Assembly (NCBI GenBank): GCA_009746045.1
Contig: RPFO01000111.1
Coordinates: 723,301-787,300 of the forward strand
From: Mesostigma viride
Lineage: Eukaryota > Streptophyta > Mesostigmatophyceae > Mesostigmatales > Mesostigmataceae
DNA length: 64,000 nt
Direction: 5' to 3'
Position numbers and translations under genes: made by a program
Part shown: piece after piece, positions 39,701 through 64,000 of the stretch
Layout of the letters: each line of letters starts with the position of its first letter
Position numbering within the stretch: the stretch's first letter is position 1
The notes under the pieces: generated by a model
The model's input: only the letters and a program-made list of their open reading frames with translations
Database searches by the model: none
Told to the model about the DNA's origin: nothing

Positions 39701-42700
39701 GTTGCACCTGTCTCCCATGCTGCCAGCTGTGGGCGTCTTACCCTCTCCCATAGTTGGCTAAGTGCGCTGGCCGAAGACTCTACTGTTACTTGCTGCCAAG
39801 CTGGGATTTCCTTCCAGGCTGGCATGCACCTCTCTGCTGTAACCTGCCAGTGCGGCACCCTTGCATGTTTCGTGCATTAGGCTAGAGCACCCAGCCGTGA
39901 CCAGCACTTTCAACAAGTCCACCACCATGGGCACAGGACCCACAAACATCCAGAAAGGGGCTTTCAGTGCCTTGTTCAGGCTTATGCCCCACTCCCACCC
40001 ACGATGATGTTTTCAAGGCCCTGGGGGAATTGACTTTGCGGGTAGGTTCAAAACGGTGGTACTGCGGTGTTAGGTGAGATAGGCGGCCTTGTCGTGGCAG
40101 GATGTTTGGGGTGGCGACCTGCTGGTAAACAAAATGAGCAAGGCTTGGCGGTGTTCCTGCTGTGCAGGGGAGGCCCTAATGGAGTCAAAGGGCCCTGAGC
40201 CAGAGTCCAGAGACAGACTTGATGGCATGGTGGTGTATGCACCTGAATTGGAATAGTTGGCCTTGGCCGTGTTGGGTTGGCGCTGCTGCGCATCTTTCGG
40301 GATGGGATATGTTTACCTGCACACGACAGGTAGGAATGGACGCAGCTGGCGGTCATGCAGCCACCAAGTCGCGCTGCCACCGCTACATCTGCGTCTGCAT
40401 TCCCTCTTCATGGTGTGGCCACTAACATGGACACCCTCCCCCAACGGCATCTTGCAGGGGGGACAACCAGCACGGAGGTGGCGATGGCTGCAGCAGCAGC
40501 GGCAACGGCCGCCGTCGCCCGCGGGTTGGATACCAAGGGGAAGGCGGCGGCATCCAGGGGGCCAACGTCCCTGCCAGGCAAGAAGAAAGCGGGTGCAGGG
40601 GACGAGAAACACGGCCAAGGGCCACCCAATGCCAGGCGCCATGTCAAGGACAGTTCTGCAGGCCCCAGGGTGGATGCCAGGGGCGCGCTGGCGGGTCGTC
40701 GAGACGGTAGCTCCAACACACCCTCCGAGGTCTCTCTTCTGCGGCAGCACGTGGCTGCGACCGCCGTGGCAGCCGTTCTGGAGCAGGAGGGTGAGGCGGC
40801 CGACGACGCGTCCGTGGAGGATGAGAGTGAGGGGGGTGGAAGTGAGGGGGGTGGGAGTGAGGGGGATGGGAGTGAGGGCAGCAGCGGCTTTGTTCCCCAC
40901 GAAGGCCACAAGCCTGTGCCCTTGCTCGGACACGCCGATATGCCCCAGGTGGCAGGTGAGCGCTGGCAGGGCACAAGGCCGCAGCAGGCCCGGGGCTCCC
41001 ACCGCACCAGCACGGCCAGCGTGCCGTCCACTCTGGACACCGCAGCGGACACCCTGGGAGACGGAGACATCTCGGATGGGGGCGCCAGCTGGCTGTGGGC
41101 GCCCAGCGTACGTTCGGAGACGCCATCGGCGGACCCCTTCCTCAGCAGCAAGCGCAGCTCCTTTTCGTCCAAGGACAGACTGGCATCTGCAACAGAGGCA
41201 CCCGCCGAGGTGCCGAGTGGCGGTGGGTGGGCACGCGCCCGCCCTATTGCGCAGAGTGAGCCATCGCCCGCACCAGGGCCGGCACGCACGGAGCTGCGAC
41301 CAAGCACAGACGACAGGCAGGGCGTACCGCAAGTGGTGCGGGGGCCATCCGTGGTGGTTGTGGATGGGGCCGGGCCGGGCGGTGAGGGCCGGACCGCAGG
41401 GGGCGCTCCTGCTTCCTCCGGCACCGCCGCGATGTTCGGCGTGCAGGTGCCCCCCCCTCGCTTCATGGGCGACGGCCGCGCGCGCGAGGCCTCACTGACC
41501 GCGGCGCCTTGCGCGAGGATGGAGGGCATGCACGCCATCGCAGAGGAGGACGAGCGTTCCACCCCATCCGTCGTGGCGTCGCCGGCGCCCCGCTCCCAGG
41601 TGGCCCCAGACAGGGCCAGGCCAGGTGTGGCCGCAAGCCAGGATACATACGGCGGGTTTGCGCCCCAGTATCCCACCTTTGGTGCCCCCGACAGCGACGC
41701 CACCGCGGTTCGCAGTGGGGCCACAGGCGACCCACCCGCGGAGGCCCGCTACATGGGGGTGGCGTCGGCGCCGCGGCCGGTGGGGGCGGTCCCCTCCCGC
41801 CTTGATGAGCTGCGGGCACTGCGCGACGAGCTGTTGGGGTGGCAGCCGCCAGCACAGCCAGCACCGCCGTCGCAAGCACCGCGCGACACGTGGCAGGAAC
41901 ATGTGGCGGTGATGGAGGCTGCACACTTGTCGCAGCCATCTCAGGCGCATCCATCCTCATCCCAAACACCAGCGGTGCTGGAGACATCCACACTGCAGGC
42001 AGAGCGGATGGCAGGTGGGGCGAAACCAGGGAAACCACCGCAGGGGGTGGCGGCCCGCACCATCGAGGGCTCGATGGACAGCATGCTGGGTGCGCTGGTG
42101 TCGCAGATCGGCGAGCTGGACCGGCTGATGCTGTCGACCGCAGAGGCAAGCTGGCCGCCAGCACCACCGCCAGCTCCCCAGCCACAGCAGCAGCAGCGGC
42201 AGCGGCAGCAGCTGGTGCGACGAGAGCCTCAGCTATCGCCCCCCATGACAAGGGCAAACGGGCGCCACGGCTCCACGTCGCAACCACAGCACGGTATGGA
42301 GTTATCTTGCTTTGTTACCCTACGGGTGCTGGATGGAGGGATCGCCATCGTTTGCTTAGTGGTGCTGCACAGGTATCTGGCTTCTGATTCTCCCGCTGCT
42401 TCTGGTCCGCAGGGAAAAGCCGCCCTTGAAGCAGAGGTTTTCCTTGTGTCGCACGTCATGACCGGTGTAAAGGGCTACCGTAGCGATCCACCGCGGAGCT
42501 GCCGGACTCTGTCGCCGGCCAAGTCCGTATGGCATCGTGCCCGTTTGTGGAACAGAGGCCTCCCATGGCCGGCTTACCATGCAAGGTAGACCGAACCAAT
42601 GTCGTCGGACCATCTGCGTCATAAGGACTTTTCGACAGAAACACGAGTAATGCCTGCAGATGTTTGCGGTGAGTGGCGGCCACTCATGCCTCTGCTCGTG

Positions 42701-45700
42701 TTCTCTCCCTCCTGCCACTTACTGTGTCTCATCCTGTTTTCCCGTTCCTGGCGATGGTGCACTGGCTGGCTGCATGCGCTCATTATGGCATGCTGTCATG
42801 CCCCAACAGACATGGGCAGCGCGGGTGCATGGCAGCCGGATGCCAGCTGGACAGGGAGCCTCCCGCGCAGCACGGCAAGCACCCAGGCGGATGTGGCCAC
42901 CCCTAACCCGGCAGGCGCCGTGCAGCAAACGGCAGCACAACGGAGCGCAGTGCCCGGTCTGAGCGCCCACGTCAGTACGCCGAGCGAGCAGGCAGCAGGG
43001 GCGCTCTCTTCGTCCCTGGTGAGCGGCTGGTGGGGCCTTATACTTTGTGCCTGGCGATGCTTGGGAGATGTCTGTAGCCACGCTTGACGGGCTTTGCTTC
43101 GGATTTCGCAGCCATCGCGGCTATGTTGCGCGTGCAGTGTTTTTTGTCTAGCCCACTGGGTGAGCGGTGCATGACACGGGCATGGAACCCCGATGTTTGC
43201 TGCACGAGGCGAAGGCGCCACTGATGTTTGCTGCACGATGCGAAGGCGCCACTGGTGTTTGCTGCACGATACGAAGCTGCCACTGATGTTTGCTGCACGA
43301 TGCGAAGGCGCCACTGGTGTTTGCTGCACGATGCGAAGGCGCCACTGATGTTTGCTGCACGATGCGAAGGCGCCACTGGTGTTTGCTGCACGATGCGAAG
43401 GCGCCACTGGTGTTTGCTGCACGATGCGAAGGCACCACTGGTGTTTGCTGCACGAGGCGAAGGCGCCACTGATGTTTGCTGCACGATGCGAAGGCGCCAC
43501 TGATGTTTGCTGCACGATGCGAAGGCGCCACTGGTGTTTGCTGCACGATGCGAAGGCGCCACTGGTGTTTGCTGCACGATGCGAAGGCGCCACTGATGTT
43601 TGCTGCACGATGCGAAGGCGCCACTGATGTTTGCTGCACGATGCGAAGGCGCCACTGATGTTTGCTGCACGATGCGAAGGCGCCACTGGTGTTTGCTGCA
43701 CGATGCGAAGGCGCCACTGATGTTTGCTGCACGATGCGAAGGCGCCACTGATGTTTGCTGCACGATGCGAAGGCGCCACTGATGTTTGCTGCACGATGCG
43801 AAGGCGCCACTGATGTTTGCTGCACGATGCGAAGGCGCCACTGATGTTTGCTGCACGATGCGAAGCTGCCACTGATGTTTGCTGCACGATGCAAAGGCGC
43901 CACTGATGTTTGCTGCACGATGCGAAGGCGCCACTGATGTTTGCTGCACGATGCGAAGGCCCCACTGGTGTTTGCTGCACGATGCGAAGGCGCCACTGAT
44001 GTTTGCTGCACGATGCGAAGGCGCCACTGATGTTTGCTGCACGATGCGAAGGCGCCACTGATGTTTGCTGTACGATGCGAAGCTGCCACTGATGTTTGCT
44101 GCACGATGCGACGCTGCCACTGGTGTTTGCTGCACGATGCGAAGGCGCCACTGGTGTTTGCTGCACGATGCGAAGGCGCCACTGGTGTTTGCTGCACGAT
44201 GCGAAGGCGCCACTGATGTTTGCTGCACGATGCGAAGGCGCCACTGATGTTTGCTGCACGATGCGACGCTGCCACTGGTGTTTGCTGCACGATGCGAAGG
44301 CGCCACTGATGTTTGCTGCACGATGCGAAAGCGCCACTGGTGTTTGCTGCACGATGCGAAGGCGCCACTGGTGTTTGCTGCACGATGCGAAGGCGCCACT
44401 GATGTTTGCTGCACGATGCGAAGGCGCCACTGGTGTTTGCTGCACGATGCGAAGGCGCCACTGATGTTTGCTGCACGATGCGAAGCCGCCACTGATGTTT
44501 GCTGCACGATGCGACGCTGCCACTGATGTTTGCTGCACGATGCGAAGGCGCCACTGATGTTTGCTGCACGATGCGAAGCCGCCACTGATGTTTGCTGCAC
44601 GATGCGACGCTGCCACTGATGTTTGCTGCACAACGCGAAGGCGCCACTGATGTTTGCTGCACGATGCGAAGGCGCCATTGATGTTTGCTGCACGATGCGA
44701 AGCTGCCACTGATGTTTGCTGCACGATGCGAAGGCGCCACTGATGTTTGCTGCACGATGCGAAGGCGCCACTGGTGTTTGCTGCACGATGGGAAGGCGCC
44801 ACTGATGTTTGCTGCACGATGCGAAGGCACCACTGATGTTTGCTGCACGATGCGAAGGCGCCACTGATGTTTGCTGCACGATGCGAAGGCGCCACTGGTG
44901 TTTGCTGCACGATGCGAAGGCGCCACTGATGTTTGCTGCACGATGCGAAGCTGCCACTGATGTTTGCTGCACGATGCGACGCTGCCACTGATGTTTGCTG
45001 CACGATGCGAAGGCGCCACTGATGTTTGCTGCACGATGCGAAGGCGCCACTGATGTTTGCTGCACGATGCGAAGGCGCCACTGGTGTTTGCTGCACGATG
45101 CGAAGGCGCCACTGGTGTTTGCTGCACGATGCGAAGGCGACACTGGTGTTTGCTGCACGATGCGAAGGCGCCACTGATGTTTGCTGCACGATGCGAAGGC
45201 GCCACTGGTGTTTGCTGCACGATGCGAAGGCGCCACTGGTGTTTGCTGCACGATGCGAAGGCGCCACTGATGTTTGCTGCACGATGCGAAGGCGCCACTG
45301 ATGTTTGCTGCAGGATGCGACGCTGCCACTGATGTTTGCTGCACGATACGAAGCTGCCACTGATGTTTGCTGCACGATGCGAAGGCGCCACTGGTGTTTG
45401 CTGCACGATGCGAAGGCGCCACTGGTGTTTGCTGCACGATGCGAAGGCGCCACTGATGTTTGCTGCACGATGCGAAGCCGCCACTGATGTTTGCTGCACG
45501 ATGCGAAGGCGCCACTGATGTTTGCTGCACGATGCGACGCTGCCACTGATGTTTGCTGCACGATGCGAAGGCGCCACTGGTGTTTTCTGCACGATGCGAA
45601 GGCGCCACTGGTGTTTGCTGCACGATGCGAAGGCGCCACTGATGTTTGCTGCACGATGCGAAGGCGCCACTGGTGTTTGCTGCACGATGCGAAGGCGCCA

Positions 45701-48700
45701 CTGATGTTTGCTGCACGATGCGAAGGCGCCACTGGTGTTTGCTGCACGATGCGAAGGCGCCACTGGTGTTTGCTGCACGATGCGAAGGCGCCACTGATGT
45801 TTGCTGCACGATGCGAAGGCGCCACTGATGTTTGCTGCACGATGCGAAGGCGCCACTGGTGTTTGCTGCACGATGCGAAGGCGCCACTGATGTTTGCTGC
45901 ACGATGCGAAGGCGCCACTGATGTTTGCTGCACGATGCGAAGGCGCCACTGATGTTTGCTGCACGATGCGAAGGCCCCACTGGTGTTTGCTGCACGATGC
46001 GAAGGCGCCACTGATGTTTGCTGCACGATGCGAAGGCGCCACTGATGTTTGCTGCACGATGCGAAGGCGCCACTGATGTTTGCTGCACGATGCGAAGGCG
46101 CCTCTGATGTTTGCTGCACGATGCGAAGGCGCCACTGATGTTTGCTGCACGATGCGAAGGCGCCACTGATGTTTGCTGTACGATGCGAAGGCGCCACTGA
46201 TGTTTGCTGCACGATGCGACGCTGCCACTGATGTTTGCTGCACAACGCGAAGGCGCCACTGATGTTTGCTGCACGATGCGAAGGCGCCATTGATGTTTGC
46301 TGCACGATGCGAAGCTGCCACTGATGTTTGCTGCACGATGCGAAGGCGCCACTGATGTTTGCTGCACGAGGCGAAGGCGCCACTGGTGTTTGCTGCACGA
46401 TGCGAAGGCGCCACTGATGTTTGCTGCACGATGCGAAGGCACCACTGATGTTTGCTGCACGATGCGAAGGCGCCACTGATGTTTGCTGCACGATGCGAAG
46501 GCGCCACTGGTGTTTGCTGCACGATGCGAAGGCGCCACTGATGTTTGCTGCACGATGCGAAGCTGCCACTGATGTTTGCTGCACGATGCGACGCTGCCAC
46601 TGATGTTTGCTGCACGATGCGAAGGCGCCACTGATGTTTGCTGCACGATGCGAAGGCGCCACTGATGTTTGCTGCACGATGCGAAGGCGCCACTGGTGTT
46701 TGCTGCACGATGCGAAGGCGCCACTGGTGTTTGCTGCACGATGCGAAGGCGCCACTGGTGTTTGCTGCACGATGCGAAGGCGCCACTGGTGTTTGCTGCA
46801 CGATGCGAAGGCGCCACTGGTGTTTGCTGCACGATGCGAAGGCGCCACTGGTGTTTGCTGCACGATGCGAAGGCGCCACTGATGTTTGCTGCACGATGCG
46901 AAGGCGCCACTGATAATTGCTGCACGATGCGACGCTGCCACTGATGTTTGCTGCACGATACGAAGCTGCCACTGATGTTTGCTGCACGATGCGAAGGCGC
47001 CACTGGTGTTTGCTGCACGATGCGAAGGCGCCACTGGTGTTTGCTGCACGATGCGAAGGCGCCACTGATGTTTGCTGCACGATGCGAAGCCGCCACTGAT
47101 GTTTGCTGCACGATGCGAAGGCGCCACTGATGTTTGCTGCACGATGCGACGCTGCCACTGATGTTTGCTGCACGATGCGAAGGCGCCACTGGTGTTTTCT
47201 GCACGATGCGAAGGCGCCACTGGTGTTTGCTGCACGATGCGAAGGCGCCACTGATGTTTGCTGCACGATGCGAAGGCGCCACTGGTGTTTGCTGCACGAT
47301 GCGAAGGCGCCACTGATGTTTGCTGCACGATGCGAAGGCGCCACTGGTGTTTGCTGCACGATGCGAAGGCGCCACTGGTGTTTGCTGCACGATGCGAAGG
47401 CGCCACTGATGTTTGCTGCACGATGCGAAGGCGCCACTGATGTTTGCTGCACGATGCGAAGGCGCCACTGATGTTTGCTGCACGATGCGAAGGCGCCACT
47501 GATGTTTGCTGCACGATGCGAAGGCGCCACTGATGTTTGCTGCACGATGCGAAGGCGCCACTGATGTTTGCTGCACGATGCGAAGGCGCCACTGGTGTTT
47601 GCTGCACGATGCGAAGGCGCCACTGGTGTTTGCTGCACGATGCGAAGGCGCCACTGATGTTTGCTGCACGATGCGAAGGCGCCACTGATGTTTGCTGCAC
47701 GATGCGAAGGCGCCTCTGATGTTTGCTGCACGATGCGAAGGCGCCACTGATGTTTGCTGCACGATGCGAAGGCGCCACTGATGTTTGCTGTACGATGCGA
47801 AGCTGCCACTGATGTTTGCTGCACGATGCGACGCTGCCACTGGTGTTTGCTGCACGATGCGAAGGCGCCACTGGTGTTTGCTGCACGATGCGAAGGCGCC
47901 ACTGGTGTTTGCTGCACGATGCGAAGGCGCCACTGATGTTTGCTGCACGATGCGAAGCTGCCACTGATGTTTGCTGCACGATGCGACGCTGCCACTGGTG
48001 TTTGCTGCACGATGCGAAGGCGCCACTGATGTTTGCTGCACGATGCGAAAGCGCCACTGGTGTTTGCTGCACGATGCGAAGGCGCCACTGATGTTTGCTG
48101 CACGATGCGAAGCCGCCACTGATGTTTGCTGCACGATGCGACGCTGCCACTGATGTTTGCTGCACGATGCGAAGGCGCCACTGATGTTTGCTGCACGATG
48201 CGAAGGCGCCACTGATGTTTGCTGCACGATGCGAAGGCGCCACTGATGTTTGCTGCACAACGCGAAGGCGCCACTGATGTTTGCTGCACGATGCGAAGGC
48301 GCCATTGATGTTTGCTGCACGATGCGAAGCTGCCACTGATGTTTGCTGCACGATGCGAAGGCGCCACTGGTGTTTGCTGCACGAGGCGAAGGCGCCACTG
48401 GTGTTTGCTGCACGATGCGAAGGCGCCACTGATATTTGCTGCACGATGCGAAGGCGCCACTGATGTTTGCTGCACGATGCGAAGGCGCCACTGATGTTTG
48501 CTGCACGATGCGAAGGCGCCACTGGTGTTTGCTGCACGATGCGAAGGCGCCACTGATGTTTGCTGCACGATGCGAAGGCGCCACTGATGTTTGCTGCACG
48601 ATGCGAAGGCGCCACTGATGTTTGCTGCACGATGCGAAGGCGCCACTGATGTTTGCTGCACGATGCGAAGGCGCCACTGATGTTTGCTGCACGATGCGAA

Positions 48701-51700
48701 GGCGCCACTGGTGTTTGCTGCACGATGCGAAGGCGCCACTGATGTTTGCTGCACGATGCGAAGGCACCACTGATGTTTGCTGCACGATGCGAAGGCGCCA
48801 CTGATGTTTGCTGCACGATGCGAAGGCGCCACTGGTGTTTGCTGCACGATGCGAAGGCGCCACTGATGTTTGCTGCACGATGCGAAGGCGCCACTGGTGT
48901 TTGCTGCACGATGCGAAGGCGCCACTGATGTTTGCTGCACGATGCGAAGGCACCACTGGTGTTTGCTGCACGATGCGAAGGCGCCACTGGTGTTTGCTGC
49001 ACGAGGCGAAGGCGCCACTGATGTTTGCTGCACGATGCGAAGGCGCCACTGATGTTTGCTGCACGATGCGACGCTGCCACTGATGTTTGCTGCACGATGC
49101 GAAGGCGCCACTGGTGTTTGCTGCACGATGCGAAGGCACCACTGATGTTTGCTGCACGATGCGAAGGCGCCACTGATGTTTGCTGCACGATGCGAAGGCG
49201 CCACTGGTGTTTGCTGCACGATGCGAAGGCGCCACTGATGTTTGCTGCACGATGCGAAGGCGCCACTGATGTTTGCTGCACGATGCGAAGGCGCCACTGA
49301 TGTTTGCTGCACGATGCGAAGGCGCCACTGATGTTTGCTGCACGATGCGAAGGCGCCACTGATGTTTGCTGCACGATGCGAAGGCGCCACTGATGTTTGC
49401 TGCACGATGCGAAGGCGCCACTGGTGTTTGCTGCACGATGCGACGCTGCCACTAATCCCCGTGCCCCTTTTTTCTTGCTGCTTGTTTTTCCTGCAGGCCC
49501 ATGATTCACGGCCATCCGTTGCTGTTACCAACAGCTCTTTCCAACAGGCGGTGGTGGATGGTGCCAGCCGGCTCTCGAGTGGTCTGAGCTCTCAGCCACA
49601 AGCAGTGCTTGGCGCTGCCGCCCTGCCCCATGTCCCAGGCCAGGCCACCATACGCGATGCCCGCGGGAACGTCTCGCTGACATCATCCCACGGTGTGCTG
49701 TCCTTGTCAGGTGGCGCGGCAGGCGGCGCGTCTGGCAGCATGGGCGCGTCACAGGGGTCGCACAGTTCCGCTGGGCGTGGCCACCGGCACGCATGCGGCC
49801 CCCGCTCGGACACGTCCGGTTCGCTGGTGGACGAGGGCGAGCTGGACGCGCTGATCGAGCGCGTGCGCGCCGACTTCAACATTAGCTCGTTGAACTCCAG
49901 CACCACGCAGGTGAGCACGCGCAGGATGGCCCGCTCATTGAAAATTAGCTCCACGCAGGTGAGGGGCGTGGTGGCGGGCATTCAGCCTGGGTATGTGTAG
50001 TGGGCAGGCGTGGGCAGGCGACACTTTGGCAAGTCATAGCATGTTTTGCGTCCCGCCTGCAACCATGCCGGATTGGGCAGGTACGTTAGAGTGTTCCCAG
50101 GCCTGCGACACCAGGCTAAAGCTAGAGGTTGGTTTGCTGCTGGCCCACCCCACACAAGAATGGTTGAGCTTTCCAGTGGCGCGGCTTGTTTGGCGGCTAT
50201 TTTTTCAAGTGAGCGCCGCTGTTGCAACATGTGGTGCCCAGGCTTTGAGAATGGGATGGTGTTTCCGGCTGCCTGCTCTGCTGCGGCAGGTTTTAGTTCC
50301 TGTACCAGGCAAACTATCTTGTGAGCGTTGGCCTGGGTCGATGATGGGAGCGGTGTGAAAACATCTTCGGGTGACGACCCCTTCTCCCACTGCCTCTGGG
50401 CCCAGGTAACCTACCCACCCTCAGCAGATCTGGCCCACCATCCCTCCCTACTGGGCTCACGTCTATTCGTTGCCAACGGTGCCGGTATCCACTATGTGCG
50501 CTGATGCACGTGTGCGTGCCGGCATCATCTTGTGCGTGCTCACATCCACTTTTGTGCTGGCATCCCCCTGTGTGCCCGCTGATAACCCATCGCGCGCAGG
50601 ACGGAGAGCTGCTCCACGCCAGCCGCAGCCACGCGGCGCCCACCCCCATCCCCGCCCCCGCCTCCACCCCCGCCCCTGCCTCAGCTGACAGAAGCAAGCT
50701 GCAGGGGGCACCCATGGCGGCCAGCATCGCCGGTTTGACGCCAGCTGCAGCCGCCAGCAGCTCGCGTACCGCCGTGCCAGTGTCCAGCAGCGCTACGGGC
50801 CCCGTGGGCGGGCGAGGAGGGCCCTCGCCATATGGGGGGCTGCCCGACGGCCGCCCGCGTGGAGAGATGACAGCACCGTTGCACTACGCGGGCATCAGCG
50901 GCGGGGACACGGCAGGGATGGGTGTGCCGCCTGGGCCATCTCCGTGGGGGCATAGCATGGAGGCACCTGGCAACGCGCGCCCCTTGGTGACCAGCAGCCC
51001 TTACTCACAGCTCGCGTGGCAATCTTCCATTGGTGCCTACCCGCACTCCTATTATGTTCCTGGAAGCCTGGGGCTGGCTGGTCCTTTGGACCTTCGCTTG
51101 GGCAGTACACCCGTGCCACCCACATGGGTGCCGGGTGCCAGCACCACAAGTCTGGCTGCTGCGCCGGCACTGGGCGGCAATTCCTGGCGCGCTTCCCCCG
51201 GACACACGGGGGCCAGCCTACCCGATGCTGACTACGACCCGCTCACCCGGCCGGCGGCAGGCGTGGGCAGCGGCGCCGCGTCGCTGCGGGCCACGTTTGA
51301 GGAGCGCAAGAGACAGCACCTCGCGCAGCTGAGGCAGCTCTGTGGGACGGGCGGTGAGGGCCGTGGGGTTGATGGGGATGACGCGGGGGACAGTGTTGAC
51401 GAGGAGCTGGACGATGTGTCCGCAGACGGTGATGAATACCACGCTGGGGGTGGGTCCGCTGATACTGACCCGCCTGGCATGGGCGCGCCTCCTATCGTCA
51501 TCCCGGGCCCTGCGCTGGGCTCCAGCTGGAAACGACTGGCCTCCTCTCCTGGCCAGGGGGCAGCACACTCGGCAAGCACGCAGCGGGTGTCGCCAGCAAG
51601 CCACCGAAAAGGAAGCGCTCACAAGGGTACAACATCGGGTACGTCGCCCTCATGCATCCATCATCACCTGCACTTGGTACTGTGTGCTGCGGATGCCATC

Positions 51701-52342
51701 AGGCCAGCAGCGTCCATGCACTTTGTTAGCTGAGGTGGCTGCCTTGGCCTTCCGTGTTCCGTTCTAGCGTGGTCTGCGCAGTCTTCAGAGGTGGCAGGCT
51801 GGATTCTGCAACATGCTGCCCGTCTTTCCGTCTGGCCACTTCACCGTAGTCAGTCCTTTACCAGTCATCGCTGTGCTTCCCAGAAGGGGCCACAACGGAG
51901 ATGGCGGGGCACAACCATGCCTTCCCGGCAGCTCTGGTGGCCAGATGATGCCGTGGCGTGATTGGATGGTGGCATGGCATCACCCTCTACCTTCAAGCGC
52001 AGGGAGGCACACTCCAGAGGCTTGACTCGTGCGATGCCCTCTGTACCGTGGCCATACCGATGTTGCCATCCCGGCTTGTCTTGCCCTGCAGCCGGGCCGG
52101 CCCACCGGGCAACCCCTGGCGACCACCGACCTCGTGGCGCGCGCCCGAGGACGGCTCCAGGGCCCCGCGTATCGCCCCCTTCCAAGGCCTCTCCACCCTC
52201 CAAGGCCTCTCCCCTGCCCAAGGCCTCGCTGGGCAACCCGGTGCCCTTGGAGCAGCGGCTGCAGGCGGCGGGGCGCGAGAGGCAGCAAAAGAACGCCGCA
52301 ATCATTGCGCGCCGGCGGCAGGTGTTCAGCGCCTATTCCAAG
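33728..52342 (+). CDS. Large coiled-coil / low-complexity protein, 12 exons seen, 3' end outside window
   Basis: Exons: 33728-33844, 35018-35101, 36063-36179, 36611-36694, 37346-37762, 38181-38396, 39267-39597, 40458-42293, 42810-43018, 49497-49910, 50600-51638 and 52092-52342. The total is 5115 nt = 1705 codons, all in phase, with an in-frame TAA at 33635 before the ATG. Exon 2 could instead start at 35006 and exon 10 end at 49958 without frame change. Residues about 30-320 are charged helices (RIRRLLEDKRASDRHRQQFQ, ELLRRRVWQHKHAQLVAQRA, ANRQRAEREAAQAEARLRDM), predicted coiled coil. Exons 7-11 are mostly Ala/Gly/Pro/Ser-rich with islands such as DEGELDALIERVRADFN and LRATFEERKRQHLAQLRQL. Exon 12 ends RLQAAGRERQQKNAAIIARR then RQVFSAYSK at a GTAGGC donor. 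I do not recognise the family; a cytoskeletal, centrosomal or ciliary role would fit but is a guess. Confidence 0.72.
33988..34174. repeat. 93-bp tandem duplication, intron 1 of the coiled-coil gene
   Basis: GCTGTAGCCTCTGGGACGCA starts at 33991 and again at 34084. The copies appear identical over the 93-bp unit, ending in ACACGCAGCAAGA. Confidence 0.92.
34671..34940. repeat. (CCT)n trinucleotide tract, about 270 bp
   Basis: An almost pure pyrimidine CCT run with two CTT interruptions near 34895-34910, in intron 1 of the coiled-coil gene about 75 bp before its exon 2. All six frames stay open, giving poly-Leu, poly-Pro, poly-Ser or poly-Gly/Glu/Arg chance frames. The mirror-symmetric purine/pyrimidine strand can form triplex (H-DNA), and the length is likely variable between strains. 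Confidence 0.95.
35300..35350. repeat. (CCAACAA)n heptamer repeat, about seven units
   Basis: CCAACAA repeats perfectly from 35300 to 35350 in intron 2 of the coiled-coil gene. The 7-base period resembles a telomeric repeat in length only; the sequence is not CCCTAAA. Confidence 0.9.
43191..49453. repeat. 31-bp minisatellite, about 202 units, intron 9 of the coiled-coil gene
   Basis: The unit contains GTTTGCTGCACGATGCGAAG followed by GCGCCACTGAT. The span of 6263 bp equals 202 x 31, and the register is kept throughout. Common variants are CTGATG/CTGGTG, GAAGGCGCC/GAAGCTGCC/GACGCTGCC and ACGATGCG/ACAACGCG. Blocks recur at 1612 bp (52 units; for example 44685 and 46297, 45305 and 46917), and also at 2015 and 3720 bp. 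It fills the 6478-bp intron between donor 43019 (GTGAGC) and acceptor 49496 (CTGCAG). Since 31 is not a multiple of three and the minus strand lacks stops, all three minus frames stay open for more than 2100 codons. These are not genes. Confidence 0.97.
49872..49958 (+). repeat. Partial duplication of the exon 10 donor region
   Basis: The exon 10 end (ATTAGCTCGTTGAACTCCAG then CACCACGCAG|GTGAGC at 49911) is echoed 48 bp later by TTGAAAATTAGCTCCACGCAG|GTGAGG at 49959. Both donors are in the same phase, so using the second would add 16 residues in frame. Confidence 0.65.
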
Positions 52343-55300
52343 GTAGGCATGCATGGGGCACGGTGGGGTAGGCATGCATGGGGCACGGCAGGTGTTCAGC
52401 GCCTATTCCAAGGTAGGCATGCATGGGGCACGGTGGGGTAGGCATGCATGGGGCACGGCAGGTGTTCAGCGCCTATTCCAAGGTAGGCATGCATGGGGCA
52501 CGGTGGGGTAGGCATGCATGGGGCACGGTGGGGTAGGCATGCATGGGGCACGGCAGGTGTTCAGCGCCTATTCCAAGGTAGGCATGCATGGGGCACGGTG
52601 GGGTAGGCATGCATGGGGCACGGTGGGGTAGGCATGCATGGGGCACGGCAGGTGTTCAGCGCCTATTCCAAGGTAGGCATGCATGGGGCACGGCAGGTGT
52701 TCAGCGCCTATTCCAAGGTAGGCATGCATGGGGCACGGTGGGGTAGGCATGCATGGGGCACGGCAGGTGTTCAGCGCCTATTCCAAGGTAGGCATGCATG
52801 GGGCACGGTGGGGTAGGCATGCATGGGGCACGGCAGGTGTTCAGCGTCTATTCCAAGGTAGGCATGCATGGGGCACGGTGGGGTAGGCATGCATGGGGCA
52901 CGGTGGGGTAGGCATGCATGGGGCACGGCAGGTGTTCAGCGTCTATTCCAAGGTAGGCATGCATGGGGCACGGTGGGGTAGGCATGCATGGGGCACGGCA
53001 GGTGTTCAGCGTCTATTCCAAGGTAGGCATGCATGGGGCACGGTGGGGTAGGCATGCATGGGGCACGGCAGGTGTTCAGCGCCTATTCCAAGGTAGGCAT
53101 GCATGGGGCACGGCAGGTGTTCAGCGTCTATTCCAAGGTAGGCATGCATGGGGCACGGTGGGGTAGGCATGCATGGGGCACGGCAGGTGTTCAGCGTCTA
53201 TTCCAAGGTAGGCATGCATGGGGCACGGTGGGGTAGGCATGCATGGGGCACGGCAGGTGTTCAGCGCCTATTCCAAGGTAGGCATGCATGGGGCACGGTG
53301 GGGTAGGCATGCATGGGGCACGGCAGGTGTTCAGCGCCTATTCCAAGGTAGGCATGCATGGCGCACGGTGGGGTAGGCATGCATGGGGCACGGCAGGTGT
53401 TCAGCGTCTATTCCAAGGTAGGCATGCATGGGGCACGGCAGGTGTTCAGCGCCTATTCCAAGGTAGGCATGCATGGGGCACGGTGGGGTAGGCATGCATG
53501 GGGCACGGTGGGGTAGGCATGCATGGGGCACGGCAGGTGTTCAGCGCCTATTCCAAGGTAGGCATGCATGGGGCACGGTGGGGTAGGCATGCATGGGGCA
53601 CGGCAGGTGTTCAGCGTCTATTCCAAGGTAGGCATGCATGGGGCACGGCAGGTGTTCAGCGTCTATTCCAAGGTAGGCATGCATGGGGCACGGTAGGTGT
53701 TCAGCGTCTATTCCAAGGTAGGCATGCATGGGGCACGGCAGGTGTTCAGCGCCTATTCCAAGGTAGGCATGCATGGGGCACGGTGGGGTAGGCATGCATG
53801 GGGCACGGTGGGGTAGGCATGCATGGGGCACGGCAGGTGTTCAGCGCCTATTCCAAGGTAGGCATGCATGGGGCACGGTGGGGTAGGCATGCATGGGGCA
53901 CGGCAGGTGTTCAGCGCCTATTCCAAGGTAGGCATGCATGGGGCACGGTGGGGTAGGCATGCATGGGGCACGGCAGGTGTTCAGCGCCTATTCCAAGGTA
54001 GGCATGCATGGGGCACGGTGGGGTAGGCATGCATGGGGCACGGCAGGTGTTCAGCGCCTATTCCAAGGTAGGCATGCATGGGGCACGGTGGGGTAGGCAT
54101 GCATGGGGCACGGCAGGTGTTCAGCGCCTATTCCAAGGTAGGCATGCATGGGGCACGGTGGGGTAGGCATGCATGGGGCACGGCAGGTGTTCAGCGCCTA
54201 TTCCAAGGTAGGCATGCATGGGGCACGGTGGGGTAGGCATGCATGGGGCACGGCAGGTGTTCAGCGCCTATTCCAAGGTAGGCATGCATGGGGCACGGTG
54301 GGGTAGGCATGCATGGGGCACGGCAGGTGTTCAGCGCCTATTCCAAGGTAGGCATGCATGGGGCACGGTGGGGTAGGCATGCATGGGGCACGGCAGGTGT
54401 TCAGCGCCTATTCCAAGGTAGGCATGCATGGGGCACGGTGGGGTAGGCATGCATGGGGCACGGCAGGTGTTCAGCGCCTATTCCAAGGTAGGCATGCATG
54501 GGGCACGGTGGGGTAGGCATGCATGGGGCACGGCAGGTGTTCAGCGCCTATTCCAAGGTAGGCATGCATGGGGCACGGTGGGGTAGGCATGCATGGGGCA
54601 CGGCAGGTGTTCAGCGTCTATTCCAAGGTAGGCATGCATGGCGCACGGTGGGGTAGGCATGCATGGGGCACGGCAGGTGTTCAGCGCCTATTCCAAGGTA
54701 GGCATGCATGGGGCACGGCAGGTGTTCAGCGTCTATTCCAAGGTAGGCATGCATGGGGCACGGTGGGGTAGGCATGCATGGGGCACGGCAGGTGTTCAGC
54801 GTCTATTCCAAGGTAGGCATGCATGGGGCACGGTGGGGTAGGCATGCATGGGGCACGGCAGGTGTTCAGCGCCTATTCCAAGGTAGGCATGCATGGGGCA
54901 CGGTGGGGTAGGCATGCATGGGGCACGGCAGGTGTTCAGCGTCTATTCCAAGGTAGGCATGCATGGGGCACGGCAGGTGTTCAGCGTCTATTCCAAGGTA
55001 GGCATGCATGGGGCACGGCAGGTGTTCAGCGCCTATTCCAAGGTAGGCATGCATGGGGCACGGTGGGGTAGGCATGCATGGGGCACGGCAGGTGTTCAGC
55101 GCCTATTCCAAGGTAGGCATGCATGGGGCACGGTGGGGTAGGCATGCATGGGGCACGGCAGGTGTTCAGCGCCTATTCCAAGGTAGGCATGCATGGGGCA
55201 CGGTGGGGTAGGCATGCATGGGGCACGGCAGGTGTTCAGCGCCTATTCCAAGGTAGGCATGCATGGGGCACGGTGGGGTAGGCATGCATGGGGCACGGCA

Positions 55301-58300
55301 GGTGTTCAGCGCCTATTCCAAGGTAGGCATGCATGGGGCACGGTGGGGTAGGCATGCATGGGGCACGGCAGGTGTTCAGCGCCTATTCCAAGGTAGGCAT
55401 GCATGGGGCACGGTGGGGTAGGCATGCATGGGGCACGGCAGGTGTTCAGCGTCTATTCCAAGGTAGGCATGCATGGCGCACGGTGGGGTAGGCATGCATG
55501 GGGCACGGCAGGTGTTCAGCGCCTATTCCAAGGTAGGCATGCATGGGGCACGGCAGGTGTTCAGCGTCTATTCCAAGGTAGGCATGCATGGGGCACGGTG
55601 GGGTAGGCATGCATGGGGCACGGCAGGTGTTCAGCGTCTATTCCAAGGTAGGCATGCATGGGGCACGGTGGGGTAGGCATGCATGGGGCACGGCAGGTGT
55701 TCAGCGCCTATTCCAAGGTAGGCATGCATGGGGCACGGTGGGGTAGGCATGCATGGGGCACGGCAGGTGTTCAGCGTCTATTCCAAGGTAGGCATGCATG
55801 GGGCACGGCAGGTGTTCAGCGTCTATTCCAAGGTAGGCATGCATGGGGCACGGCAGGTGTTCAGCGCCTATTCCAAGGTAGGCATGCATGGGGCACGGTG
55901 GGGTAGGCATGCATGGGGCACGGCAGGTGTTCAGCGCCTATTCCAAGGTAGGCATGCATGGGGCACGGTGGGGTAGGCATGCATGGGGCACGGCAGGTGT
56001 TCAGCGCCTATTCCAAGGTAGGCATGCATGGGGCACGGTGGGGTAGGCATGCATGGGGCACGGCAGGTGTTCAGCGTCTATTCCAAGGTAGGCATGCATG
56101 GGGCACGGTGGGGTAGGCATGCATGGGGCACGGCAGGTGTTCAGCGCCTATTCCAAGGTAGGCATGCATGGGGCACGGTGGGGTAGGCATGCATGGGGCA
56201 CGGCAGGTGTTCAGCGTCTATTCCAAGGTAGGCATGCATGGGGCACGGCAGGTGTTCAGCGCCTATTCCAAGGTAGGCATGCATGGGGCACGGTGGGGTA
56301 GGCATGCATGGGGCACGGCAGGTGTTCAGCGTCTATTCCAAGGTAGGCATGCATGGCGCACGGTGGGGTAGGCATGCATGGGGCACGGCAGGTGTTCAGC
56401 GTCTATTCCAAGGTAGGCATGCATGGGGCACGGTGGGGTAGGCATGCATGGGGCACGGCAGGTGTTCAGCGTCTATTCCAAGGTAGGCATGCATGGGGCA
56501 CGGTGGGGTAGGCATGCATGGGGCACGGCAGGTGTTCAGCGTCTATTCCAAGGTAGGCATGCATGGCGCACGGTGGGGTAGGCATGCATGGGGCACGGCA
56601 GGTGTTCAGCGCCTATTCCAAGGTAGGCATGCATGGGGCACGGTGGGGTAGGCATGCATGGGGCACGGCAGGTGTTCAGCGTCTATTCCAAGGTAGGCAT
56701 GCATGGGGCACGGTGGGGTAGGCATGCATGGGGCACGGCAGGTGTTCAGCGCCTATTCCAAGGTAGGCATGCATGGGGCACGGTGGGGTAGGCATGCATG
56801 GGGCACGGCAGGTGTTCAGCGCCTATTCCAAGGTAGGCATGCATGGGGCACGGTGGGGTAGGCATGCATGGGGCACGGCAGGTGTTCAGCACCTATTCCA
56901 AGGTAGGCATGCATGGGGCACGGTGGGGTAGGCATGCATGGGGCACGGCAGGTGTTCAGCGCCTATTCCAAGGTAGGCATGCATGGGGCACGGTGGGGTA
57001 GGCATGCATGGGGCACGGCAGGTGTTCAGCGCCTATTCCAAGGTAGGCATGCATGGGGCACGGTGGGGTAGGCATGCATGGGGCACGGCAGGTGTTCAGC
57101 GTCTATTCCAAGGTAGGCATGCATGGGGCACGGTGGGGTAGGCATGCATGGGGCACGGCAGGTGTTCAGCGCCTATTCCAAGGTAGGCATGCATGGGGCA
57201 CGGTGGGGTAGGCATGCATGGGGCACGGCAGGTGTTCAGCGTCTATTCCAAGGTAGGCATGCATGGGGCACGGTGGGGTAGGCATGCATGGGGCACGGCA
57301 GGTGTTCAGCGTCTATTCCAAGGTAGGCATGCATGGGGCACGGTGGGGTAGGCATGCATGGGGCACGGCAGGTGTTCAGCGCCTATTCCAAGGTAGGCAT
57401 GCATGGGGCACGGTGGGGTAGGCATGCATGGGGCACGGCAGGTGTTCAGCGTCTATTCCAAGGTAGGCATGCATGGGGCACGGTGGGGTAGGCATGCATG
57501 GGGCACGGCAGGTGTTCAGCGTCTATTCCAAGGTAGGCATGCATGGGGCACGGCAGGTGTTCAGCGCCTATTCCAAGGTAGGCATGCATGGGGCACGGTG
57601 GGGTAGGCATGCATGGGGCACGGCAGGTGTTCAGCGTCTATTCCAAGGTAGGCATGCATGGGGCACGGCAGGTGTTCAGCGCCTATTCCAAGGTAGGCAT
57701 GCATGGGGCACGGTGGGGTAGGCATGCATGGGGCACGGCAGGTGTTCAGCGTCTATTCCAAGGTAGGCATGCATGGGGCACGGTGGGGTAGGCATGCATG
57801 GGGCACGGCAGGTGTTCAGCGTCTATTCCAAGGTAGGCATGCATGGGGCACGGTGGGGTAGGCATGCATGGGGCACGGCAGGTGTTCAGCGCCTATTCCA
57901 AGGTAGGCATGCATGGGGCACGGCAGGTGTTCAGCGTCTATTCCAAGGTAGGCATGCATGGGGCACGGTGGGGTAGGCATGCATGGGGCACGGCAGGTGT
58001 TCAGCGTCTATTCCAAGGTAGGCATGCATGGGGCACGGCAGGTGTTCAGCGTCTATTCCAAGGTAGGCATGCATGGGGCACGGTGGGGTAGGCATGCATG
58101 GGGCACGGTGGGGTAGGCATGCATGGGGCACGGCAGGTGTTCAGCGCCTATTCCAAGGTAGGCATGCATGGGGCACGGTGGGGTAGGCATGCATGGGGCA
58201 CGGCAGGTGTTCAGCGCCTATTCCAAGGTAGGCATGCATGGGGCACGGCAGGTGTTCAGCGCCTATTCCAAGGTAGGCATGCATGGGGCACGGCAGGTGT

Positions 58301-61300
58301 TCAGCGCCTATTCCAAGGTAGGCATGCATGGGGCACGGTGGGGTAGGCATGCATGGGGCACGGCAGGTGTTCAGTGCCTATTCCAAGGAAGGCATGCATG
58401 GGGCACGGTGGGGTAGGCATGCATGGGGCACGGCAGGTGTTCAGCGCCTATTCCAAGGTAGGCATGCATGGGGCACGGTGGGGTAGGCATGCATGGGGCA
58501 CGGCAGGTGTTCAGCGTCTATTCCAAGGTAGGCATGCATGGGGCACGGTGGGGTAGGCATGCATGGGGCACGGTGGGGTAGGCATGCATGGCGCACGGCA
58601 GGTGTTCAGCGCCTATTCCAAGGTAGGCATGCATGGGGCACGGTGGGGTAGGCATGCATGGGGCACGGCAGGTGTTCAGCGCCTATTCCAAGGTAGGCAT
58701 GCATGGGGCACGGTGGGGTAGGCATGCATGGGGCACGGCAGGTGTTCAGCGTCTATTCCAAGGTAGGCATGCATGGGGCACGGCAGGTGTTCAGCGTCTA
58801 TTCCAAGGTAGGCATGCATGGGGCACGGCAGGTGTTCAGCGCCTATTCCAAGGTAGGCATGCATGGGGCACGGCAGGTGTTCAGCGTCTATTCCAAGGTA
58901 GGCATGCATGGGGCACGGCAGGTGTTCAGCGTCTATTCCAAGGTAGGCATGCATGGGGCACGGCAGGTGTTCAGCGTCTATTCCAAGGTAGGCATGCATG
59001 GGGCACGGTGGGGTAGGCATGCATGGGGCACGGCAGGTGTTCAGCGTCTATTCCAAGGTAGGCATGCATGGGGCACGGTGGGGTAGGCATGCATGGGGCA
59101 CGGCAGGTGTTCAGCGCCTATTCCAAGGTAGGCATGCATGGGGCACGGTGGGGTAGGCATGCATGGGGCACGGCAGGTGTTCAGCGTCTATTCCAAGGTA
59201 GGCATGCATGGGGCACGGTGGGGTAGGCATGCATGGGGCACGGCAGGTGTTCAGCGTCTATTCCAAGGTAGGCATGCATGGGGCACGGCAGGTGTTCAGC
59301 GTCTATTCCAAGGTAGGCATGCATGGGGCACGGTGGGGTAGGCATGCATGGGGCACGGCAGGTGTTCAGCGTCTATTCCAAGGTAGGCATGCATGGGGCA
59401 CGGTGGGGTAGGCATGCATGGGGCACGGCAGGTGTTCAGCGTCTATTCCAAGGTAGGCATGCATGGGGCACGGTGGGGTAGGCATGCATGGGGCACGGCA
59501 GGTGTTCAGCGTCTATTCCAAGGTAGGCATGCATGGGGCACGGCAGGTGTTCAGCGTCTATTCCAAGGTAGGCATGCATGGGGCACGGTGGGGTAGGCAT
59601 GCATGGGGCACGGCAGGTGTTCAGCGCCTATTCCAAGGTAGGCATGCATGGGGCACGGTGGGGTAGGCATGCATGGGGCACGGCAGGTGTTCAGCGCCTA
59701 TTCCAAGGTAGGCATGCATGGGGCACGGTGGGGTAGGCATGCATGGGGCACGGCAGGTGTTCAGCGTCTATTCCAAGGTAGGCATGCATGGGGCACGGTG
59801 GGGTAGGCATGCATGGGGCACGGCAGGTGTTCAGCGCCTATTCCAAGGTAGGCATGCATGGGGCACGGCAGGTGTTCAGCGTCTATTCCAAGGTAGGCAT
59901 GCATGGGGCACGGTGGGGTAGGCATGCATGGGGCACGGCAGGTGTTCAGCGTCTATTCCAAGGTAGGCATGCATGGGGCACGGTGGGGTAGGCATGCATG
60001 GGGCACGGCAGGTGTTCAGCGTCTATTCCAAGGTAGGCATGCATGGGGCACGGTGGGGTAGGCATGCATGGGGCACGGCAGGTGTTCAGCGTCTATTCCA
60101 AGGTAGGCATGCATGGGGCACGGTGGGGTAGGCATGCATGGGGCACGGCAGGTGTTCAGCGTCTATTCCAAGGTAGGCATGCATGGGGCACGGTGGGGTA
60201 GGCATGCATGGGGCACGGCAGGTGTTCAGCGTCTATTCCAAGGTAGGCATGCATGGGGCACGGTGGGGTAGGCATGCATGGGGCACGGCAGGTGTTCAGC
60301 GTCTATTCCAAGGTAGGCATGCATGGCGCACGGTGGGGTAGGCATGCATGGGGCACGGCAGGTGTTCAGCGTCTATTCCAAGGTAGGCATGCATGGGGCA
60401 CGGTGGGGTAGGCATGCATGGGGCACGGCAGGTGTTCAGCGTCTATTCCAAGGTAGGCATGCATGCGGCACGGTGGGGTAGGCATGCATGGGGCACGGCA
60501 GGTGTTCAGCGTCTATTCCAAGGTAGGCATGCATGGGGCACGGTGGGGTAGGCATGCATGGGGCACGGCAGGTGTTCAGCGCCTATTCCAAGGTAGGCAT
60601 GCATGGGGCACGGTGGGGTAGGCATGCATGGGGCACGGCAGGTGTTCAGCGCCTATTCCAAGGTAGGCATGCATGGGGCACGGTGGGGTAGGCATGCATG
60701 GGGCACGGCAGGTGTTCAGCGTCTATTCCAAGGTAGGCATGCATGGGGCACGGTGGGGTAGGCATGCATGGGGCACGGCAGGTGTTCAGCGCCTATTCCA
60801 AGGTAGGCATGCATGGGGCACGGCAGGTGTTCAGCGCCTATTCCAAGGTAGGCATGCATGGGGCACGGTGGGGTAGGCATGCATGGGGCACGGCAGGTGT
60901 TCAGCGTCTATTCCAAGGTAGGCATGCATGGGGCACGGCAGGTGTTCAGCGCCTATTCCAAGGTAGGCATGCATGGGGCACGGTGGGGTAGGCATGCATG
61001 GGGCACGGCAGGTGTTCAGCGCCTATTCCAAGGTAGGCATGCATGGGGCACGGTGGGGTAGGCATGCATGGGGCACGGCAGGTGTTCAGCGTCTATTCCA
61101 AGGTAGGCATGCATGGGGCACGGTGGGGTAGGCATGCATGGGGCACGGCAGGTGTTCAGCGCCTATTCCAAGGTAGGCATGCATGGGGCACGGTGGGGTA
61201 GGCATGCATGGGGCACGGCAGGTGTTCAGCGCCTATTCCAAGGTAGGCATGCATGGCGCACGGTGGGGTAGGCATGCATGGGGCACGGCAGGTGTTCAGC

Positions 61301-64000
61301 GCCTATTCCAAGGTAGGCATGCATGGGGCACGGCAGGTGTTCAGCGTCTATTCCAAGGTAGGCATGCATGGGGCACGGTGGGGTAGGCATGCATGGGGCA
61401 CGGCAGGTGTTCAGCGTCTATTCCAAGGTAGGCATGCATGGGGCACGGTGGGGTAGGCATGCATGGGGCACGGCAGGTGTTCAGCGCCTATTCCAAGGTA
61501 GGCATGCATGGGGCACGGTGGGGTAGGCATGCATGGGGCACGGCAGGTGTTCAGCGCCTATTCCAAGGTAGGCATGCATGGGGCACGGTGGGGTAGGCAT
61601 GCATGGGGCACGGCAGGTGTTCAGCGTCTATTCCAAGGTAGGCATGCATGGGGCACGGTGGGGTAGGCATGCATGGGGCACGGCAGGTGTTCAGCGCCTA
61701 TTCCAAGGTAGGCATGCATGGGGCACGGCAGGTGTTCAGCGCCTATTCCAAGGTAGGCATGCATGGGGCACGGTGGGGTAGGCATGCATGGGGCACGGCA
61801 GGTGTTCAGCGTCTATTCCAAGGTAGGCATGCATGGGGCACGGCAGGTGTTCAGCGCCTATTCCAAGGTAGGCATGCATGGGGCACGGTGGGGTAGGCAT
61901 GCATGGGGCACGGCAGGTGTTCAGCGCCTATTCCAAGGTAGGCATGCATGGGGCACGGTGGGGTAGGCATGCATGGGGCACGGCAGGTGTTCAGCGTCTA
62001 TTCCAAGGTAGGCATGCATGGGGCACGGTGGGGTAGGCATGCATGGGGCACGGCAGGTGTTCAGCGCCTATTCCAAGGTAGGCATGCATGGGCACGGTGG
62101 GGTAGGCATGCATGGGGCACGGCAGGTGTTCAGCGCCTATTCCAAGGTAGGCATGCATGGCGCACGGTGGGGTAGGCATGCATGGGGCACGGCAGGTGTT
62201 CAGCGCCTATTCCAAGGTAGGCATGCATGGGGCACGGCAGGTGTTCAGCGTCTATTCCAAGGTAGGCATGCATGGGGCACGGTGGGGTAGGCATGCATGG
62301 GGCACGGCAGGTGTTCAGCGTCTATTCCAAGGTAGGCATGCATGGGGCACGGTGGGGTAGGCATGCATGGGGCACGGCAGGTGTTCAGCGCCTATTCCAA
62401 GGTAGGCATGCATGGGGCACGGCAGGTGTTCAGCGTCTATTCCAAGGTAGGCATGCATGGGGCACGGCAGGTGTTCAGCGCCTATTCCAAGGTAGGCATG
62501 CATGGGGCACGGCAGGTGTTCAGCGTCTATTCCAAGGTAGGCATGCATGGGGCACGGCAGGTGTTCAGCGTCTATTCCAAGGTAGGCATGCATGGGGCAC
62601 GGTGGGGTAGGCATGCATGGGGCACGGCAGGTGTTCAGCGTCTATTCCAAGGTAGGCATGCATGGGGCACGGTGGGGTAGGCATGCATGGGGCACGGCAG
62701 GTGTTCAGCGTCTATTCCAAGGTAGGCATGCATGGGGCACGGTGGGGTAGGCATGCATGGGGCACGGCAGGTGTTCAGCGCCTATTCCAAGGTAGGCATG
62801 CATGGGGCACGGTGGGGTAGGCATGCATGGGGCACGGCAGGTGTTCAGCGTCTATTCCAAGGTAGGCATGCATGGGGCACGGTGGGGTAGGCATGCATGG
62901 GGCACGGCAGGTGTTCAGCGCCTATTCCAAGGTAGGCATGCATGGGGCACGGCAGGTGTTCAGCGTCTATTCCAAGGTAGGCATGCATGGGGCACGGCAG
63001 GTGTTCAGCGCCTATTCCAAGGTAGGCATGCATGGGGCACGGCAGGTGTTCAGCGTCTATTCCAAGGTAGGCATGCATGGGGCACGGCAGGTGTTCAGCG
63101 TCTATTCCAAGGTAGGCATGCATGGGGCACGGTGGGGTAGGCATGCATGGGGCACGGCAGGTGTTCAGCGTCTATTCCAAGGTAGGCATGCATGGGGCAC
63201 GGCAGGTGTTCAGCGCCTATTCCAAGGTAGGCATGCATGGGGCACGGCAGGTGTTCAGCGTCTATTCCAAGGTAGGCATGCATGGGGCACGGCAGGTGTT
63301 CAGCGTCTATTCCAAGGTAGGCATGCATGGGGCACGGCAGGTGTTCAGCGCCTATTCCAAGGTAGGCATGCATGGGGCACGGCAGGTGTTCAGCGTCTAT
63401 TCCAAGGTAGGCATGCATGGGGCACGGCAGGTGTTCAGCGTCTATTCCAAGGTAGGCATGCATGGGGCACGGCAGGTGTTCAGCGTCTATTCCAAGGTAG
63501 GCATGCATGGGGCACGGCAGGTGTTCAGCGCCTATTCCAAGGTAGGCATGCATGGGGCACGGCAGGTGTTCAGCGCCTATTCCAAGGTAGGCATGCATGG
63601 GGCACGGCAGGTGTTCAGCGTCTATTCCAAGGTAGGCATGCATGGGGCACGGCAGGTGTTCAGCGTCTATTCCAAGGTAGGCATGCATGGGGCACGGCAG
63701 GTGTTCAGCGCCTATTCCAAGGTAGGCATGCATGGGGCACGGCAGGTGTTCAGCGCCTATTCCAAGGTAGGCATGCATGGGGCACGGCAGGTGTTCAGCG
63801 TCTATTCCAAGGTAGGCATGCATGGGGCACGGCAGGTGTTCAGCGTCTATTCCAAGGTAGGCATGCATGGGGCACGGTGGGGTAGGCATGCATGGGGCAC
63901 GGCAGGTGTTCAGCGTCTATTCCAAGGTAGGCATGCATGGGGCACGGCAGGTGTTCAGCGCCTATTCCAAGGTAGGCATGCATGGGGCACGGCAGGTGTT
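52322..64000 (+). repeat. Exon-intron-junction minisatellite (45/70-bp units), at least 11.7 kb
   Basis: The first unit is the real end of exon 12. Each unit is GTGTTCAGCGCCTATTCCAA+G (21 nt, VFSAYSK), then GTAGGCATGCATGGGGCACG plus GCAG, 45 bp in all. Many units insert a further 25-bp GTAGGCATGCATGGGGCACG-GTGGG segment (70 bp, a few 95 bp). From the length I estimate 170-190 units; I did not count them. Nearly every unit thus shows CGGCAG|21 nt|GTAGGC, an acceptor and donor around seven codons. A C/T site (GCC/GTC, Ala/Val) alternates along the array. Rare variants include CATGGCGCAC, a G deletion near 62090 and GAAGGC at 58388. The array reaches the right edge, so its end and the next exon are not seen. 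Confidence 0.96.

Follow-up and report, generated by a model that had tools for sequence, protein, structure and literature searches.

What becomes of an apparent splice junction that is repeated in tandem hundreds of times, and how might such a structure arise? The question is raised by a stretch of 64,000 nucleotides (nt) from Mesostigma viride, a streptophyte green alga related to land plants, in which the last codons of one exon and the intron-like sequence behind it form the unit of a giant array (GenBank assembly GCA_009746045.1, contig RPFO01000111.1, positions 723,301 to 787,300 of the forward strand; this whole stretch is hereafter the window). The array is built of two unit types, similar copies recur at exon edges in introns sampled elsewhere in the genome, and most of the copies examined would disrupt the reading frame were they used. 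In our judgement the array and the edge copies are probably best explained by rampant local duplication, tolerated through splicing at the copy nearest the exon.

Extent and structure of the array

The array lies on the forward strand and was delimited with Tandem Repeats Finder and by segmentation into units, here called A (45 nt) and B (25 nt). It begins at 52316, at the CGGCAG of exon 12 of the gene described below, fills the window to its end at 64000 and overruns it by about 3.9 kb on the same contig, ending within a B unit at approximately 67,882-67,888, after which the sequence is unique (positions beyond the window continue its numbering, the contig position being the window position plus 723,300). 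An earlier note, made from the letters of the window, had described at least 11.7 kb of repeated exon 12 end and intron start; the array proves longer, at 15.57 kb and 421 units, 251 of them A and 170 B. Within the window alone there are 184 A and 135 B units, the final "B" being an A unit clipped by the window end. With its head-to-tail units of tens of nucleotides and their high identity, the array is a minisatellite.

The A unit, GGTAGGCATGCATGGGGCACGGCAGGTGTTCAGCG[C/T]CTATTCCAA, joins the final 21 coding nt of exon 12 to 24 intron-like nt and holds both CAG|GT and AAG|GT, open in frame. The B unit, GGTAGGCATGCATGGGGCACGGTGG, has its first 22 nt in common with A and is without the exon piece. 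The 45-nt unit of exon and intron sequence described in the earlier note thus stands, while its "70-bp unit" resolves into A plus B, the second type being the 25-nt B. In the same way, the flanked 21-nt segment ascribed to nearly every unit is a property of the A units, 248 of the 251 having CAG before it and AAG after it, and is absent from the 170 B units. The encoded peptide is VFSVYSK in 139 A units, VFSAYSK in 111 and VFSTYSK in one. GGT opens 420 of the 421 units, in keeping with the well over a hundred equivalent donor-like sites originally claimed.

Two exact sequences account for 244 of the 251 A units, and one for 156 of the 170 B units. Tandem Repeats Finder scores of up to 6,120 for rows inside the array, together with the restriction of those 244 A units to two sequences, exclude its origin by chance, and its homogeneity argues that it is probably young. 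Larger blocks have been duplicated as well, the longest exact internal repeat measuring 1,080 nt, with its copies 835 nt apart. The array terminus is unique DNA and not a recognised exon. No array sharing the unit was found elsewhere in the genome by a search that skips very common words and could therefore have passed over others; matches on contigs C777 and C1602, candidates for sister arrays, were rejected as unrelated minisatellites matching at 68-75%.

The host gene

The gene from which the unit derives was modelled on the forward strand at 33728..52342 by joining exons in open frame and by recourse to a published protein. Eleven exons ending at 52342, with one more (exon 1, 33728-33844) supplied by that EukProt protein, make twelve, so that the number given to exon 12 in the earlier note is correct. 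Exon 2 occupies 35018-35101 (the published protein starts it at 35006, 12 nt earlier in the same frame), and is followed by exons 3-6 (36063-36179, 36611-36694, 37346-37762 and 38181-38396), exons 7-9 (39267-39597, 40458-42293 and 42810-43018), exons 10-11 (49497-49910 and 50600-51638) and exon 12 (52092-52342), which contributes its last 21 nt (52322-52342) to the array unit. Joined, exons 2-12 give 1,666 stop-free codons with GT/AG at every junction; exon 12 is in open frame with exon 11 (phase 1), and its end, AAG|GTAGGC, is in phase 0. A (TCC)90 tract at 34671-34940 lies just upstream of the exon 2 acceptor.

A protein search with the gene model returned a single match, EukProt jgi/Mesvir1 Mv22966-RA, identical over the 330 residues searched; model and protein (1,163 residues) are identical for 1,098 residues. 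Mv22966-RA reads past 43018 into intron 9, ending ..VSGWWGLILCAWRCLGDVCSHA, and exons 10-12 are therefore missing from the published protein. Wholly inside this intron Tandem Repeats Finder located another minisatellite on the forward strand, of about 202 copies of 31 nt (6.25 kb, 43192..49443), and the published protein ends upstream of it. Arrays of this kind may hamper annotation, as where Mv22966-RA runs into the intron holding the 6.25-kb array.

Protein searches gave no relatives beyond the alga's own protein, and a genome search for a second copy of exons 10-12 returned only the locus itself and short matches, 41-70 bases long, confined to a small portion of the query. Pfam scans of the gene yielded nothing above cut-off; a protein database assigns PF28375.1 to Mv22966-RA, a family that our scan did not report. 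In layout and at its N-terminus the gene may resemble the centriole protein CEP295/Ana1, a family linked to a C-terminal ALMS motif (PF15309); a search for that motif, as a sign of membership, found no match in the genome at E<=10.

Reading frame and splice signals in the array

Read without splicing, exon 12 continues into the array as VGMHGARWGRHAWGTAGVQRLFQGRHAWGTVG and closes at the first in-frame stop of its translation, TAG 52439 (52439..52441, forward strand). The first array unit is a 25-nt B, and the unit-start donors that precede the stop lie at +0, +25, +70 and +95 nt, with offsets of 0, 1, 1 and 2 modulo 3, so that only the first of them is in phase. The proposal that the leading block of units encodes a length-variable protein segment is rejected on these grounds.

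Splice-site profiles were built from two gene models in the window, which supply 15 donors and as many acceptors; donors were scored leave-one-out. AAG|GTAGGC reaches 7.4 bits, among model donors that range from 5.0 to 11.4 (n=15), and is outscored by 2.7% of GT sites at 34000-52000. Position 52342 is described here as a putative donor, consensus-like in sequence. At 3.2 bits the array acceptor is outscored by 12 of the 15 model acceptors, and it has 35% pyrimidine at positions -20 to -4, compared with 47-94% in the models. The 7-codon microexons envisaged in the earlier note are permitted by frame, the 21-nt cassette from CAG to the next GT being in phase in 248 of the 251 A units, but the weakness and low pyrimidine content of the acceptor make them unlikely. 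We expect the array to be mostly intron, and in this the earlier note is supported.

Copies of other junctions in the window

In the same gene, a second copy of the exon 10 donor junction (CCACGCAG|GTGAG) stands at the end of 49911..49958, 48 nt past the donor on the forward strand, in frame and free of stops, with a score of 16.0 against a shuffled maximum of 10.0. Use of this in-frame copy could give exon 10 an alternative extension of 16 residues (49911-49958).

The window also contains a DNA polymerase alpha gene, matched by 16 distinct solved sequences at E<=1e-20 (best 1.6e-73). Here Tandem Repeats Finder detected a second junction array on the forward strand (6963..7126), with about 5 copies of a 32-nt unit made of the last 28 nt of the exon ending at 6990 plus GTGA. 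Alignment to DNA polymerase alpha structures crosses the exon join at 6990 into the next exon and so lends this junction homology support, although local conservation is modest; a short query limited to this junction region gave no match. Another of the polymerase alpha donor junctions (CTTCCACCAGCAG|GTGCGC) recurs, in diverged copies, within the intron that follows it (5733..5860, forward strand). Over the introns of both window genes, 4 of 16 donors had a copy scoring >=13; in this test the polymerase alpha donor was placed at the third copy (7054, as against 6990 in the splice-site profiles), and one polymerase alpha exon between 5748 and 6783 was left out, by which the length of that intron is overstated.

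Recurrence at sampled exon edges elsewhere in the genome

Exons elsewhere in the genome were sampled through matches to the kinesin motor (129) and to chaperonin (58), from which 70 loci were taken: the 30 best kinesin matches, 20 further kinesin matches and 20 chaperonin matches. The idea of edge copies came from the first 30 loci, so that only the later 40, chosen from the match lists before their sequence was seen, test it independently. From each locus a 36-nt stretch of the exon edge was compared by alignment with the intron next to it, and all 70 loci were counted.

With 220-nt flanks and a combined score-and-shuffle rule, copies accompanied 17/70 of the exon 3' ends and 9/70 of the exon 5' ends, and were seen in neither cross control (0/70 and 0/70; p 8e-9 by Fisher test against the exon edges). 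Taken separately, the later 40 loci gave 13/40 and 5/40, respectively. With 345-nt flanks and a score >=13 the counts were 16/70 and 12/70, again with 0/70 in each cross control, and a looser threshold of z>4 gave 21/70 donors and 12/70 acceptors (cross controls 1/70 and 0/70). When introns were swapped between loci, only 2 of 1050 donors and 3 of 1050 acceptors scored >=13, compared with 16/70 and 10/70 for their own introns. An initial idea that copies were confined to donors, derived from an array finder, was rejected when alignment revealed copies at acceptors; donor and acceptor exon edges compared by Fisher test gave p 0.13.

Intronic windows are copied at rates similar to those of exon edges. 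Under the score-and-shuffle rule with 220-nt flanks, 12/70 and 13/70 of them had copies on the donor side and 5/70 and 6/70 on the acceptor side, rates that do not differ significantly from the exon-edge counts (p 0.28 and 0.32, respectively; donor-side against acceptor-side intronic windows, p 0.019), whereas exon interiors had none (0/53). At a plain score >=13 with the same flanks, exon edges and intronic windows gave 16/70 versus 17/70 and 14/70 on the donor side, and 10/70 versus 9/70 and 11/70 on the acceptor side. No junction-specific process is therefore needed, and frequent local tandem duplication is the simplest account, since intronic windows resemble exon edges and exon interiors are free of copies.

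Several loci carry short arrays: about 7 copies of a 22-nt unit from a kinesin exon end (L037), about 3 of an 83-nt unit (L033), about 3 of a 36-nt unit (L051), and several acceptor-junction copies upstream of the real acceptor (L088). The exon end at L037, CAG|GCAAGT, suggests a GC-AG intron with its junction repeated about 7 times. The acceptor match at L086, from the 345-nt list, is a simple CA repeat and is lost under the stricter rule. Four pairs of close paralogues occur among the 70 loci. One pair, L077 and L080, has the same 70-nt donor duplication, reducing the independent donor events from 17 to 16, and in two others (L041/L044 and L049/L050) an acceptor copy is found in one member only; together these suggest that copies both persist and turn over. 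Two near-identical chaperonin loci (G000 C1641:63548-67934 and C887:345845-347056) differ by about 3.2 kb in the matching intron, as judged from match coordinates.

Which copy is probably spliced

Frame was assessed for the 17 donors of the 220-nt survey and for the 12 acceptors of the 345-nt survey minus L086. Splicing at the best-matching copy on the intron side would preserve the frame and meet no stop at 2 of the 17 donors and 1 of the 11 acceptors. A donor dinucleotide is still intact, as judged by eye, in 12 of the 17 donor copies (GT in 11 and GC in one, L037). It would follow that the exon-proximal copy normally wins, the first donor and the last acceptor being those used. This choice is the one predicted by exon definition that favours short exons; a preference for the shortest intron would predict its opposite.

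A model for the array and its alternatives

We propose that in Mesostigma viride short local tandem duplications may arise and persist freely in and beside introns. They would be purged from exons and tolerated where splicing hides them. A duplication straddling a splice junction would leave the gene intact for as long as the spliceosome uses the copy beside the exon, and the surplus junction copies would become intron, which would thereby lengthen. The 15.6-kb array could then be an extreme case, grown from the exon 12 donor junction. The likeliest route would be unequal exchange or slippage, involving units of 25, 45 and 70 nt and larger blocks. A stronger proposition, that introns of this alga grow largely by duplicating their own splice junctions while the spliceosome reliably picks the exon-proximal site (a shortest-exon rule), is one that we entertain tentatively and are inclined to doubt.

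A number of points weigh against the model of tolerated local duplication. Exon 13 was not found in the sequence examined from the 80 kb downstream, where segments scoring above 9 on a codon score trained on the gene were listed, and 52342 could be unused; those 80 kb hold retrotransposon-like reading frames and other genes, and the reading-frame pieces of at least 20 residues in the 1.2 kb after the array have no Pfam match. Acceptor copies were absent from both window genes (0/15 at a score >=13). A random offset would also fail to keep the frame about two-thirds of the time, so the frame count shows no selection. The survey drew on two gene families of one genome, its exon edges being the ends of profile matches and not transcript-defined. 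Finally, with an exact internal repeat of 1,080 nt, the assembly may misjudge the length of the array.

In an alternative explanation exon 12 is terminal, translation stops at TAG 52439, and the array is 3' untranslated and downstream DNA that grew from the coding end and not from a splice junction. The frame indeed closes 97 nt past 52342, and codon score, Pfam (over 1.2 kb) and the genome-wide ALMS motif all failed to reveal an exon 13, for which reason this explanation is retained, as an unlikely one: AAG|GTAGGC lies inside the range of the model donors and few GT sites of the region surpass it, and many of the exons sampled elsewhere in the genome are flanked by junction copies. It would be considerably more surprising if the array were a reservoir of microexons, some A units being spliced in as 21-nt phase-0 exons that add VFS(A/V)YSK repeats to the protein. 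Although nearly all A units offer a CAG and, between it and the following donor, an in-phase stretch of 21 nt, the acceptor context is purine-rich and low-scoring, neighbouring units are separated by very short gaps (24 or 49 nt), and the homogeneity of the array leaves no signal of selection; we consider this highly improbable. A decoy function, like that of a microexon store, has no support beyond the sequence itself.

Two further explanations concern the origin of the copies, and both seem to us improbable. A junction-targeted process, such as error-prone reverse splicing, transcription-linked breaks or mobile introns, might make copies at splice sites, and under the stricter rule exon 3' ends are slightly ahead of intronic windows (17/70 versus 25/140); this difference is not significant on either side, and the excess is gone at a plain score >=13. 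False expansion of the array during assembly is suggested by the 1,080-nt repeat and by the difficulty of resolving 15.6 kb of near-identical units, in what is probably the assembly from PacBio reads and optical maps described in PMC6947507. Against such an artefact stand the two unit types, the scattered variants, the unique sequence at both ends and the presence of short junction arrays at unrelated loci.

Other features of the window

An array of 11.5 copies of 57 nt (24842-25497) lies near an exon of a gene that, by eye, resembles one for an NAD-dependent epimerase or a sterol dehydrogenase. Related retrotransposon-like frames, one of them reverse-transcriptase-like, were likewise noticed by eye at 15097-16500 of the window and, a short way beyond the array, at 69-77 kb in the continued numbering.

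Relation to known systems

Splice-site choice among equal candidates and the lengthening of introns have mostly been studied through a few engineered duplications or single natural ones. If introns grow largely by copies of their own junctions and the exon-proximal site is reliably chosen, this genome would offer thousands of natural contests between tandem donors or acceptors, the array of 420 donors being the limit case; and if such copies are as frequent across the genome as among the sampled loci, the transcriptome of this one alga would put the shortest-exon rule to the test in a great many natural instances. Tandem arrays in introns are familiar as intronic minisatellites or variable number tandem repeats, from which the present array differs in that its unit contains the exon end and splice sites. 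The literature searched, mainly titles and abstract openings with subscription journals thinly covered, described neither junction-derived arrays in Mesostigma nor junction copies at many junctions.

Among documented mechanisms, the birth of introns by duplication of an exonic AGGT, a general model reviewed in PMC3443670, likewise involves tandem copies with splice signals and the splicing out of the extra sequence. There, however, a new intron results, whereas the duplications described here affect junctions already present and would extend an intron that is already there. Intron sliding and duplication are treated in PMC2891723 and PMC7730772, and the novel intron positions described in Drosophila (PMC2891723) similarly reflect regional duplication near splice sites that moves or makes introns; those are new positions, in contrast to the accumulated look-alike junctions seen here. 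The nearest case is an RdRp gene of potato (PMC4974935), in which tandem duplication across an intron-exon boundary also passed on its splice signals. That was a single two-copy event on the acceptor side, with the new intron demonstrated by RNA-seq, whereas the Mesostigma case, read from genomic sequence, comprises hundreds of copies at one junction and further copies at 26 of 140 sampled exon edges.

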